The notes beneath the pieces are model-generated. The model was not told the origin of the DNA. It ran no database searches and saw nothing but the letters and a program-made list of their open reading frames with translations. Position numbers and translations under genes: made by a program. Positions 19,477 to 62,697 of a stretch of 64,000 bases of DNA are shown here, piece by piece (the first letter of the stretch is position 1; each line of letters opens with the position of its first letter). The DNA comes from Argopecten irradians (Eukaryota > Mollusca > Bivalvia > Pectinida > Pectinidae), in the NCBI RefSeq assembly GCF_041381155.1, contig NC_091138.1:17113255-17177254 (forward strand). The letters run 5' to 3'.

Positions 19477-22400
19477 ATGGCAGCAGTATGGCAGCAAGCT
19501 CTTGCCTTAGATGCAAAATACAACGCTTACAGGACACCGAATAATCCCCAATTTAGTAAGATCTGAATACTTCTTTAACACACATAACAGATAATCACAT
19601 ACAAGTCTTTTTCACAAGAACATGCCAATGCATTAGGCCTGTAGATCTAAGACCATAAAACTCTTTAAGAACAGTACAATGTCAGGAAGTAGGCTTATCA
19701 CTTTTGAGATTCCTCCCCCGGACTCTTTTATTTAGGACGTTTGATAGATGTCTCTCGTGGAAATCCCTACTCGAGCCTTCTAAACTTTATTCTTGAACAT
19801 AGAGTCAGGTTGATCTACCTCTTTCAAAGTTTTTTTTTTACAAATAATCCAACTGCATTGGTTCCCATACTGGCACACATCGATAGTGGAGATATTTTTC
19901 TCTCAAAACGCATATATTATGTAGTGACATGTATAACATTGTTATATTTCAAAACGTTTAGTCAGTTTCATAGACTATTTATGATATGGATATAGAGGCA
20001 TATGTTTTGCCTGTGTCCATTAACTACTCTATAACTCAGTGTTAAACACAATGTTTTTCTTAATTAAAATGCCATTTAAATACATCATCATTTTGACTAT
20101 CTTAAAATCAATGTATTTTTTTTCTTTCATGTGAAAAATGTAACATTATCATCAACTTGTTAAAGTTTTTTGATAATCATGCAAAAGAAGAGAAATTCTG
20201 TGTGGCGTATATCCCACATTGTAGCTACTAGAATTGTACCACTGCAGACGCTAGGCATATGATGAGCACCTTTTATCCTAGTACCCCTTATCTGAAATGA
20301 ATGATCACTTTCACATCAACCTAACTGTAGCTATAGGCTTTATCTCAAACAAAAGAGCTACAACTACATTATAATGAAAATTTGAATCTTAATAAAAGCA
20401 AAGAAATCTTAATGCATTTCAATATCTTTCCTTCACATGAAAAGCTATATCACAGCTGAATTGTTATGTTTATATAGGGACTGTATACATCCGGAGAAGA
20501 AGTCAGTTACTCAGAGAGAATGCCAAGTCAGGAGTAAGTAAATATAATCTTATTGGTTTTTTTGTCAACCATTTCATTGTTTATCATTAATTTAGTGTGT
20601 AAACATTCCTATTCCTAGGCTTGACTCACAGTACTGTACCTGTAGAAGGAATGTGTGGTAGCTTTATTTTGCTTTTGAGTAAACAAAAGTATGACCATTA
20701 TTTTTAGCTCACCTGGCCCGAAGGGCCGGTGAGCTTATGTCATGGCGCGGCGTCCGTCGTCCGTCCGTCCGTCTGTCCGTCAACATTTCCTTTAAATCGC
20801 TACTAGTTATAGAGTTCTGCATGGATTGTAACCAAATTTGGCCACAAGCATCCTTGGGGGAAGGGGAACAGAAGTTGTATAAATTTTGGCTCTGACCCCC
20901 AGGGGGCAGGAGGGGCGGGGCCCAATAGGGGAAATAGAGGTAAATCCTATAAATCGCTACTTGTCCTAGAGTTCTGCATGGATTGTAACCAAATTTGGCA
21001 ACAAGCATCCTTGGGGGAGGGGGAACAGAACTTGTATAAATTTTGACTCTGACCCCCGGGGGCAGGAGGGGCGGGGCCCAATAGGGGAAATAGAGGTAAA
21101 TCCTTTAAAACGCTACTTGTCCTAGAGTTCTGCATGGATTGTAACCAAAATTAGCCACAAACATCCTTGGGGAAAGGGGAACAGAACTTGTATAAATTTT
21201 GGCTCTGATCCCTCAGGGGCAAGAGGGGCAGGGCCCAATAGGGGAAATAGAGATAAATCCTTTAAATCGCTACTAGTCATAGAGTTTTGAATGGAATGTA
21301 ACCAAATTTGGCCACAAACATCCTAGGGGGAAGGGGAACAGAACTTGTATAAATTTTGGCTCTGACCCCCGGGGGCAGGAGGGGCGGGGCCCTATAGGGG
21401 AAATAGAGGTAAATCCTTTAAATCGCTACTAGTCATAGAGTTCTACATGGATTGTAACCAAATTTGGCCACAAATATCCTAGGGGGAAGGGGAACAGAAC
21501 TTGTATAAATTTTGGCTCTGATCCCTCAGGGGCAAGAGGGGCAGGGCCCAATAGGGGAAATAGAGATAAATCCTTTAAATCGCTACTAGTCATAGAGTTT
21601 TGAATGGAATGTAACCAAATTTGGCCACAAACATCCTAGGGGGAAGGGGAACAGAACTTGTATAAATTTTGGCTCTGACCCCCGGGGGCAGGAGGGGCGG
21701 GGCCCTATAGGGGAAATAGAGGTAAATCCTTTAAATCGCTACTAGTCATAGAGTTCTACATGGATTGTAACCAAATTTGGCCACAAATATCCTAGGGGGA
21801 AGGGGAACAGAACTTGTATAAATTTTGGCTCTGACCCCTCGGGGGCTGGAGGGGTGGGGCCCAATAGTGGAAATAGAGGTAAATCCTTTAAATCGCTACT
21901 AGTCTTAGAGTTCTGCATGGAATGTAAACAAATTTGGCCAGAAACATCCTTGGGGTATAAGAACTGTGTTTGTATAAATTTTGGCTCTGGTTCCGGGGGG
22001 CAGGAGGGGCGGGGCCCAATAGGGGAAATAGAGGTAAATCCTATAAATCGCTACTTGTCCTAGAGTTCTGCATGGATTGTAACCAAATTTGGCCAGAAAC
22101 ATCCTTTGGGGTACGAGAACAGAACTTGTATAAATTTTGGCTCTGGCCCTCCGGGGGCAGGAGAGGGGGGAGGGGTGGCGCCCAATAGGGGAAATAGAGG
22201 TGAATCCTTTAAATCGCTACTAGTCTTAGAGTTCTGCATGGAATGTAACCAAATTTGGCCAGAAACATCCTTGGGAGAATAAGAACTGTGTTTGTATAAA
22301 TTTTGGCTCTGGTTCCGGGGGGCAGGAGGGGCGGGGCCCAATAGGTGAATTATAGGTAATTCCTATAAATCGGTACTTTTCCTAGAGTTTGGCATGGAAT

Positions 22401-60163: not shown

Positions 60164-62697
60164 CGTCATCTGACCGAAGGTCAGGATGACCTATTGTCAT
60201 CGTGTTTCGTCCGTCGTCGTGCGCCGTGCGCCGTGCGCCGTCCGCCGTGCGCCGTGCGTCGTGCGTAAGACTATTTATACAAAAGCCTACTCCTCCTTCA
60301 TTCTTTGATGGATTTTATCCATATTTGGTTTGAAACATCATTGGGGAAGGACAATCATATTTTATATAAATGAGCCTGGTCCGACCCCTAGGGGCTGAGG
60401 GGTGGGGCACCAAAAGGGCAAATTTTCTTATTTTAAGCTTTAAAATCCTACTCCTCCTTCATCCTTGGATGGATTTCATCCATATTTGGTGTGAAACTTC
60501 ATTAGGGAAGGACAATCATATTTTATATAAATGAGCATGGTCCGACCCCTAGGGTCAGAGGGGCAGGGCCTCAAAAGGGCAAATTTTCTTAATTTTAGCT
60601 TTAAAATCCTACTCCTCCTTCATCCTTGGATGGATTTCATCCATATTTGGTTTGAAACATCATTGGGGAAGGACAATCATATTTTATATAAATGAGCCTG
60701 GTCCGACCCCTAGGGGCTGAGGGGTGGGGCCCCAAAAGGGCAAATTTTCTTATTTTAGCTTTAAATTCCTACTCCTCCTTCATCCTTTGATGGATTTCAT
60801 CCATATTTGGTGTGAAACTTCATTAGGGAAGGACAATCATATTTTATATAAATGAGCATGGTCCGACCCCTAGGGTCAGAGGGGCAGGGCCTCAAAAGGG
60901 CAAATTTTCTTAATTTTAGCTTCAAAATCCTACTCCTCCTTCATCCTTGGATGGATTTCATCCATATTTGGTTTGAAACATCATTGGGGAAGGACAATCA
61001 TATTTTATATAAATGAGCATGGTCCGACCCCTAGGGTCAGAGGGGCAGGACCTCAAAAGGGCAAATTTTCTTAATTTTAGCTTTAAAATCCTACTCCTCC
61101 TTCATCCTTTGATGGATTTCATCCATATTTGGTGTGAAACTTCATTAGGGAAGGACAATCATATTTTATATAAATGAGCATGGTCCGACCCCTAGGGTCA
61201 GAGGGGCAGGACCTCAAAAGGGCAAATTTTCTTAATTTTAGCTTTAAAATCCTACTCCTCCTTCATCCTTTGATGGATTTCATCCATATTTGGTGTGAAA
61301 CTTCATAAGGGAAGGACAATCATATTTTATATAAATGAGCCCTAGGGTCAGAGGGGCGGGGCCCCAAAAGGGCAAATTTTCTTAATTTTAGCTTTAAAAT
61401 CCTACTCCTCCTTCATCCTTGGATGGATTTCATCCATATTTGGTTTGAAACATCATTGGGGAAGGACAATCATATTTTATATAAATGAGCCTGGTCCGAC
61501 CCCTAGGGTCAGAGGGGCGGGGCCCCAAAAGGGCAAATTTTCTTAATTTTAGCTTTAAAATCCTACTCCTCCTTCATCCTTGGATGGATTTCATCCATAT
61601 TTGGTTTGAAACATCATTGGGGAAGGACAATCATATTTTATATAAATGAGCCTGGTCCGACCCCTAGGGGCTGAGGGGTGGGGCCCCAAAAGGGCAAATT
61701 TTCTCATTTTAGCTTTAAATTCCTACTCCTCCTTCATCCTTTGATGGATTTCATCCATATTTAGTGTGAAACATCATTAGGTAAGGACATTCATATTTTA
61801 TATATTTGAGATAGGTCTGACCCCTAGGGGCTGAGGGGTGGGGCCTCAAAAGGGCAAACTTTCTTATTTTAAGCTTTAAAATTCTACTCCTCCTTCATCC
61901 TTGGACGGATTTCATTTATATTTAGTGTGAAACATCATTGGGAAAGGACAATCATATTTTATATAAATGAGCCTGGTCCAACCCCTAGGGGCTGAGGGGT
62001 GGGGCCCCAAAAGGGCAAATTTTCTTAATTTTAGCTGGCCCACTTCCTGTTTTCAGGTTTCACTCTCTGATCTCAATGAAAATTGATCTATAGGGGTTTT
62101 AATTGACGCCGAACAACGTGCAAACATTTTCGTAAAGATTATTGTATTCCAAGATGGTCGCTGGCCCACTTCCTGTTTTAAGGTTTCAGTCTCTGATCTT
62201 AATGAAAATTGGTCTATAGGGGTTTTAATTGATGCGGAACAACATGCAAACATTGTCGTAAAAATTTTGGTATTTCAAGATGGCTGCTGGCCCACTTCCT
62301 GTGTTCGGGTTCATTCCAGATCTCAATGAAAATTGGTCTATAGGGGTTTTAATTGATTCAGAAGGGGGAACTTAAGGTGAGGACAATCATATTTTATAAA
62401 GGACCAGGCTAAGACCAACGGGGATAGTACGGCGGACGTCCAAACTGGGAGCTTAGCTGAAATTTGGCTTTAAAATCTGACTCCTTAAATTAATCCTTGA
62501 ATGGGTTACAACCATATATGGATAAAGGGCAACCAAGTTTGTTCAACAAATGACATTTACCTATTTCAGAAACTTACATATTCAACTAAGGAGTTCCTTG
62601 TATTATTTATATTAATTGTTAACCACTACTATATACTGTGACTTTGTTGTTTTGTGCCATGAGTCAGATGACCGTAAAGGCCCATGGGCCTCTTGTG
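60164..62697 (+). mobile_element. Hairpin-ended tandem-repeat element, family 2, copy B
   Basis: It is nearly identical to 53035-55252 over the hairpin, microsatellite, 161-bp repeats, 126-bp repeats and 3' end. It has about eleven 161-bp repeats against about nine, which explains its greater length. The flanks of the two copies are unrelated (TTATTAC before, GTCATATA after). The 5' flank AC instead of AG suggests the common sequence starts at GTCATCTG. Confidence 0.85.

Follow-up and report, generated by a model that had tools for sequence, protein, structure and literature searches.

Satellite-bearing HINE-type elements with matched ends in Argopecten irradians and their probable autonomous Helentron partners

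A 64,000-nucleotide stretch of the Argopecten irradians genome (the window; C5:17113255-17177254, in an assembly of 846 Mb and 1508 contigs, which we designate by C numbers) contains five elements built on one plan, which we assign to the Helentron-associated interspersed elements (HINEs). Reading 5' to 3', a run of T is followed by a hairpin of about 30 bases, a microsatellite (of the GTCC or GTGCGC type in the window elements), a tandem array, a unique stretch, a complement of the 5' end, a short GC hairpin, and a terminal CTTGT, after which there is usually a T. The array units measure roughly 140 to 161 bp across the window elements: 157 bp in family 1, 161 bp together with a second, 126-bp array in family 2, and 158/140 bp in family 3. 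An original prediction, made from the window alone, had proposed that these families share a common plan despite their different repeats. The plan was indeed recognizable in all five elements, except that one of them lacks the 3' complement and another has a changed 5' end. The predicted three-base loops of the 5' hairpins were also present, as GAA in the elements that had been placed at 20705, 53035, and 60164 and as AAA in the one at 23390 and in the minus-strand element at 44344-45227.

The complete family-1 element (20706-23093, plus strand) extends from AGCTCACCTGG to CTTGT inside a T-run. Its 5' hairpin (20706-20735), AGCTCACC-T-GGCCC-GAA-GGGCC-GGTGAGCT, has a predicted single-stranded DNA (ssDNA) folding energy of -14.6 kcal/mol (z -6.1). 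The array of 157-bp units (20788-23000, the end being approximate), which has relatives in autonomous Helentrons, is followed by the subterminal copy CAGGTGAGC (23060-23068), complementary to the 5' end, and by the hairpin AGGCCC-TCT-GGGCCT with the terminal CTTGT (23074-23093). The complete family-2 element (53036-55250, plus strand), running from AGGTCATCTGACC to CTTGT, starts with the hairpin AGGTCATC-TGACC-GAA-GGTCA-G-GATGACCT (53036-53065; z -5.2) and carries its two arrays at 53147-54911 (161-bp units to 54590, 126-bp units at 54588-54911), the subterminal copy GTCAGATGACC at 55217-55227, and the 3' hairpin GGCCCATGGGCC, then TCTTGT, at 55233-55250. The family-3 element (44344-45227) lies on the minus strand, with the 5' hairpin (loop AAA) at 45225-45198, the array at 45078-44594, the 3' complement at 44377-44369, the 3' hairpin at 44363-44349, and CTTGT at 44348-44344. 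In these three elements, we found the complementary end pairs that had been predicted.

The two other elements deviate from the plan. In the second family-1 element (23391-24445, plus strand; 5' hairpin at 23391-23420, 3' hairpin at 24427-24439), we looked for the 3' complement and found it absent, with a best match of 5/10. The deletion junction of this element (24420-24445) occurs only once in the genome as an exact pattern, so this copy provides no evidence that an element without the distal complement moves. The second family-2 element (60163-62696, plus strand; 3' complement at 62663-62673) shares 98.2% identity with the first in an alignment of 2106 bp. Its altered 5' terminus, ACGTCATC, has AC instead of AG, and its distal match is 9/10. 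The junctions of this copy read TTATTAC/GTCATCTGACC at the start and CTTGT/GTCATATATCC at the end (window 60150-60170 and 62690-62710), and the GTCAT common to both suggests a 5'-truncated copy or a microhomology-mediated insertion rather than the usual T-run junction.

The 3' motif GGGCCTCTTGT has five exact occurrences in the window, where 0.36 would be expected even with one mismatch allowed, and none of 100 shuffled sequences reached five. Genome-wide, we counted 15,712 exact copies of this motif against 117 of the reversed pattern, and 13,307 matches to a 5' pattern (TTTTAG, then CGTCCGTC 30 to 60 bases on) against 132 for the control; one 5' end can yield several pattern matches, the first 100 listed corresponding to 73 distinct ends. 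Folding of ssDNA gave z scores of -4.1 to -6.1 for the 5' hairpins of all five window elements. The palindrome near the 3' terminus also folds in all five, although by energy alone it is unremarkable in four of them (z -1.2 to -1.3; -3.05 in the fifth).

To describe the ends, we denote the 8 to 11 bases at the 5' terminus as X, their local hairpin partner as X', and their distal partner beside the 3' hairpin as X''. Five end types (F1 to F5) were used for comparison, with X/X'' being GCTCACCTGG/CCAGGTGAGC in F1, GGTCATCTGAC/GTCAGATGACC in F2, GCCCACCA/TGGTGGGC in F4, and GGTCACCTGAG/CTCAGGTGACC in F5. F3 has the X of F1 with another inner stem and another array. F4 has a distinct 3' hairpin, GATCCC-TCT-GGGATC, and a loop other than GAA; its 3' pattern matched the genome 3,314 times and the control not once. 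Among the matches listed for the first 7.2 Mb of C1, the 73 distinct 5' ends comprised 26 F1, 19 F2, 19 F4, 3 F3, 2 F5, and 4 others. The 54 of these that are not F4 have a loop closed by C-G that reads GAA in 33 cases and AAA in 14, and neither in 7; AAA would be the expected product of CpG loss in C-GAA. The ends of all families are homologous and can be aligned column by column, and the description of the families as unrelated, put forward in the original prediction, therefore fits their central repeats only.

We then examined the insertion sites. The family-2 element at 53036 and a family-1 element at C1:131k each lie inside another dispersed repeat. With the joined flanks of ten junctions as queries, the best 40 of 1650 candidates were scored, and all 40 came from these two junctions. 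The joined flanks of the 60163 copy and of the other seven junctions had no match among these 40, which were filled by the two repetitive blocks. We fetched ten paralogous empty sites for each of the two insertions. As anticipated by the original prediction, the junction lay in a T-run in all 20: the flanks were continuous through the T-rich run, apart from one or two bases at most, and showed no target-site duplication (TSD). In a third case, a family-2 element is inserted within a family-3 array. More generally, T directly follows 48 of 53 distinct 3' ends and directly precedes 47 of 49 distinct 5' ends. The elements thus insert in TT or longer T-runs without target duplication. On either side of the family-2 insertion at 53036, we also noticed inverted copies of a GGCCGTTTTGACTGG-type repeat (window 52443-52524 and 56920-56975), which may be the ends of the older repeat hosting it. 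Across one to four T, a 3' end adjoins the 5' end of a next element in 5 of the 53 distinct 3' ends (L001:1501-1530, L004, L067, L078, and L136). L001 and L004 look like one inverted duplicate, and both ends are family 2 in L136. Such adjoining ends may stem from insertions into an end already present or from rolling-circle copying that yields elements joined head to tail.

A profile search with PF14214 (Rep) gave 104 matches in the genome. One of them belongs to a 17.5-kb Helentron at C11:11359792-11377273 that has family-1 ends at both termini. Its single 2805-amino-acid (aa) frame encodes Rep (11368984), PIF1 (11370979-11371611), and a C-terminal Exo_endo_phos domain, with the family-1 5' end 4.9 kb before the frame and the family-1 3' end 4.2 kb after it. 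No 5' end of the types searched lies between the frame and that 3' end; the stretch ahead of the frame contains an F4-type element. A probe from the 5' part gave 20 strong (85 to 100% identity) and 20 weak matches among the best 40 of 179 candidates, and a probe from the 3' tail gave 16 matches. The identical 5' end type was present in 8 of the 12 fetched 5' sides and absent from the fetched stretch of the other 4; on the 3' side, 10 of 12 showed the 3' complement and the palindrome, 9 of them with a complete CTTGT, and the fetched stretch of the other 2 had neither. The flanks of these loci differ, except for two loci with one common 5' flank, and two further copies are 99.5 to 99.7% identical to the C11 element over the aligned part. 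The family-1 array lies between the 5' end and the coding region in the autonomous element: all 12 fetched 5' loci contained family-1 units with 82 to 100% identity to a unit of the C11 element. In a 972-bp alignment starting at the 5' end, the C11 element is 86.5% identical to the window family-1 element.

For family 2, a Helentron on C9 with a 3067-aa frame containing Rep and PIF1 terminates in GTCAGATGACCGTTAAGGCCCTTTGGGCCTCTTGT. Three Helentron copies (L044, L135, and L136) have a family-2 3' end at their terminus, and of three predicted family-2 3' ends that were fetched, two (L135 and L136) show the end with other flanks and L137 does not. Ten of 19 matches to the C9 tail lie 5 to 6 kb past a Rep match, and two HINE tails are 92 to 93% identical to one autonomous family-2 tail over 211 bp. 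Autonomous elements sharing the HINE ends, expected if the elements were non-autonomous Helentrons, are thus present for family 1 at both termini and for family 2 at the 3' terminus. A C15 Helentron (L040/L041) with a family-1 3' end 2.1 kb past its frame was dropped as a partner because the 3' end in question is part of another HINE, which has a 5' hairpin of its own, and we found no such end in the fetched DNA of Helentrons on C4 (L039/L042) and C2 (L045). The L039 and L040 frames (2904 and 3146 aa) encode OTU, Herpes_teg_N, DUF6570, and Rep domains, that is, two protease-type domains (OTU and herpes-tegument-like) ahead of Rep.

The original prediction had also claimed covariation of the matched ends. 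Comparing one element of each of the five end types, we found that both partners had changed with Watson-Crick pairing preserved at 6 of 11 distal and 3 of 7 local columns, with X, X', and X'' changing jointly at columns 2, 3, and 6; the unpaired cells were local position 1 of F3, local position 7 of F5, and distal positions 9 to 11 of F4, F3, and F1. We then assembled 30 elements with both ends: 18 from C1, the 5 in the window, 1 F5, 1 F4, 2 HINEs beside a Helentron, and 3 autonomous elements. Entry of the C1 pairs required exact TTTTAG and exact GGGCCTCTTGT, and the 18 are those kept of 19 pairs matched by position within the first 100 listed places, after an inverted duplicate (C1:72067/69436) was dropped. 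The distal match was 9-10/10 in 23 elements, 8/10 in 3, and lower in 4, which are exceptions to the predicted keeping of matched ends. The scores sum to 270, compared with 234.6 ± 7.1 for randomly re-paired ends; none of 20,000 trials reached 270, a result that is overstated and is not a probability because the copies in the test are related. Within 4 kb downstream, an F4 3' end was present for 11 of 19 F4 5' ends and for none of 54 others, and an F5-type 3' end for 1 of 2 F5 5' ends, among the matches listed (the first 100 places for each 3' pattern).

Partners with Rep, helicase, and endonuclease domains (C11 and C9), subterminal inverted repeats (subTIRs) with a complementary 5' inverted repeat, a 3' palindrome, T-run insertion, and shared ends together make this a real, well-supported observation of Helentron and HINE elements. 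We put at about 95% the probability that the five window elements are HINEs mobilized in trans by full-length Helentrons that reside in this genome and have the same terminal sequences, in agreement with the original prediction of non-autonomous Helentron-like elements. The Rep/helicase/endonuclease protein would nick at a T-run and displace one strand by rolling-circle replication, the ends of the element would be read in the displaced strand, and the copy would go into another T-run without target duplication, the insertion product seen at the empty sites. X could pair either with X', forming the 5' hairpin, or with X'', the two pairings being mutually exclusive. The reading that we favor, at about even odds, is that a change from the local to the distal pairing contributes to defining both ends and the stop of replication. 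If enzyme and ends must match, as we propose, X, X', and X'' would change together when lineages split. Since the array is part of the autonomous family-1 element, HINEs can arise by internal loss with the satellite included. Taken as a whole, this account, with HINEs, helpers in trans, an X/X'/X'' end signal, and an array inherited from the autonomous element, is very likely the best explanation.

Several results weigh against this account. Upstream of the 3' complement, the family-1 HINE has a 3' module unlike that of the sampled autonomous element, which is therefore not the direct parent of that HINE. For family 2, the autonomous DNA covered shows shared ends at the 3' terminus, and the endonuclease match of the C9 element, at 24.6 bits, is barely over the Pfam cutoff of 24.5. 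Four of the 30 elements fall below a distal match of 8/10 (4 to 6), which may reflect damage after insertion. With F1, F2, F5, and F4 taken as units, the true pairing is the best of only 24 permutations, and an F5-type 3' end also lies downstream of 1 of 71 non-F5 5' ends among the matches listed. Covariation was not seen within copies: T at position 2 of X occurs at 97 places, of which an unrelated tandem array accounts for 28. Among the remaining 69, just 4 have the compensating A, two of these being in Helentron-type hairpins. We sought a triple-compensated copy at C1:7127692 and none was shown there, the listed downstream 3' end being of the family-5 type and 2.3 kb off. Finally, the results fit competing pairing and separate roles for the two pairings alike. 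The predicted covariation thus holds between families and fails in single copies. As resident copies decay freely without compensation, it is a property of lineages, and the evidence for it consists of a handful of lineage-level changes.

We considered three other explanations, the first of which concerns the origin of the arrays. The original prediction had the arrays swapped as cassettes, by recombination or strand switching, between elements that keep their matched ends. Families 1 and 3 have near-identical ends (subTIR and 3' end) with different arrays, the L041 element combines the array and 3' end of family 3 with a different 5' end, an element at C1:530k has a 5' end of family 2 and a 3' end of family 1, and in the oyster related flanks are reported around unrelated repeats (PMC7492417). 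Exchange is therefore plausible. Nesting, deletion, or divergence would fit these cases too, however, and for family 1 vertical inheritance is sufficient, given that an array of the element's own was present in each of the 12 fetched 5' sides of the autonomous element. We consider cassette exchange possible, with the odds somewhat against it.

Alternatively, the complementarity could have arisen from templated repair rather than selection, if stalled replication copied X into X' (quasi-palindrome correction) and X'' matched only through joint inheritance of the ends. Near-perfect local and distal partners and the homology of the entire terminal block among families would be in line with this explanation. 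Yet such repair should act in resident copies as well, where so few 5'-arm mutants are compensated, and X'', which lies 0.4 to 17 kb away, beyond the reach of hairpin correction, changes too. We regard templated repair as improbable.

Cut-and-paste miniature inverted-repeat transposable elements (MITEs), which depend on a DDE transposase and would have tandem-repeat cores between short terminal inverted repeats, share the short inverted repeats and the high copy number, and tandem-repeat MITEs are named in the bivalve literature. We reject them as highly improbable because the 20 fetched empty sites of the two insertions lack a TSD, the 3' repeat is subterminal, and the partners encode Rep, PIF1, and endonuclease domains, although no search was aimed at a DDE element with these ends. 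We also rejected Helitron1, as the ends are TAG...CTTGT in T-runs and not 5'-TC and CTRR-3' at an A/T target. A strict Helitron2 assignment agrees with the hairpins at both ends and with asymmetrical terminal inverted repeats (ATIRs), but it would require partners without an endonuclease, at odds with the C-terminal Exo_endo_phos domain.

Comparison with described systems places the elements of A. irradians near Cg_HINE of Crassostrea gigas (Vojvoda Zeljko et al. 2020, PMC7492417), which has an 11- to 12-bp 5' subTIR with a complementary inverted repeat and a microsatellite of GTCY and similar types. The shared features are the microsatellite, the satellite-like array, the 3' subTIR, the palindrome, and insertion in T-rich sites without TSD. 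Oyster genomes contain many satellite-bearing HINEs, whose helper is reported there as unresolved; none of ten autonomous Repbase elements could be related to them. In contrast, the autonomous Helentrons that we find in another genome share their ends with the HINEs and, in family 1, also have a related array. As in the Helentrons and HINEs of Thomas, Vadnagara and Pritham (2014, PMC4067079), there is a Rep/helicase/endonuclease partner, palindromic subTIRs, a 3' stem-loop, TT insertion with a variable number of T, and empty sites without TSD. Links between Helentrons and HINEs are described there for mite, Culex, and Drosophila, whereas the links reported here consist of ends plus an array or tail at 86 to 93% identity. 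Our search of open-licence PMC full texts found no partner of a bivalve HINE in print.

The Helitron2 elements of Bao and Jurka (2013, PMC3627910) likewise have a 5' ATIR that forms a hairpin with downstream bases and a 3' ATIR upstream of a hairpin, with compensatory changes between two Culex elements. In the model of these authors, the 5' hairpin is lost when the distal pairing forms, which sets the endpoint. Helitron2 is described without an endonuclease (PMC4067079), which is present here, and the compensation seen here spans several families of one genome. The basic plan, compensatory changes, and the competing-pairing model are thus already known from Helitron2 and Helentrons. What we add are autonomous Helentrons whose ends are those of satellite-bearing HINEs of the oyster type, an autonomous family that contains the array, and joint changes of X, X', and X'' between lineages, together with a clearly negative result within copies. 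At least one helper family carries a satellite array itself, and with helpers and natural sets of matched and mismatched ends at hand, partner choice and satellite spread become directly testable.

In FoHeli1/2 of Fusarium oxysporum (PMC5148889), ATIRs likewise occur with a 5' hairpin whose GAA loop is closed by C-G, although these are fungal elements of the Helitron2 type with different end sequences and target. GAA closed by G-C pairs is known as an exceptionally stable DNA mini-hairpin (PMC4686876). Helraiser, a reconstructed Helitron1, resembles our elements in its 3' hairpin acting as terminator, and it retained about 90% activity when the stem was swapped and the loop kept, unlike when the loop was changed (PMC4778049). 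It differs in its 5'-TC and CTAG-3' ends without inverted repeats and its A/T target (PMC4778049), and the loop result, coming from another element and another end, is at best an analogy. It is conceivable, though we think it rather unlikely, that the ends act as a switch of three strands whose head is fixed while its arms can vary, in which Rep would read the 5' hairpin loop and closing pair, the near-constant C-GAA-G, and the X/X' stem and X'' would drift together as a lineage-specific password pairing a Helentron with its HINEs. The F4 loop, which is not GAA, would then need explaining. If it were true, the C-GAA-G head also present in the Fusarium Helitron2 ends would be an ancient DNA-level feature of the group.

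Other repeats were observed in the window and elsewhere. At window positions 48129-49173 (minus strand), a 171-bp array adjoins a GTCC microsatellite and resembles a HINE body, and the end types described above were not seen there. A 4-kb array at 9224-13303 has mixed 45-, 58-, and 135-bp units with a sequence unlike the HINE arrays described. At C1:5413600-5431402, family-4 and GGGCC-type 3' ends recur six times with a spacing of about 3,355 bp, probably through tandem duplication of a segment with two HINE ends. Matches to non-coding Helentron pieces recur at a spacing of about 3.95 to 4.0 kb at C3:40533996-40553996 and of 1.74 kb at C3:65213194-65222007, as if parts of Helentrons had become long-unit satellites.

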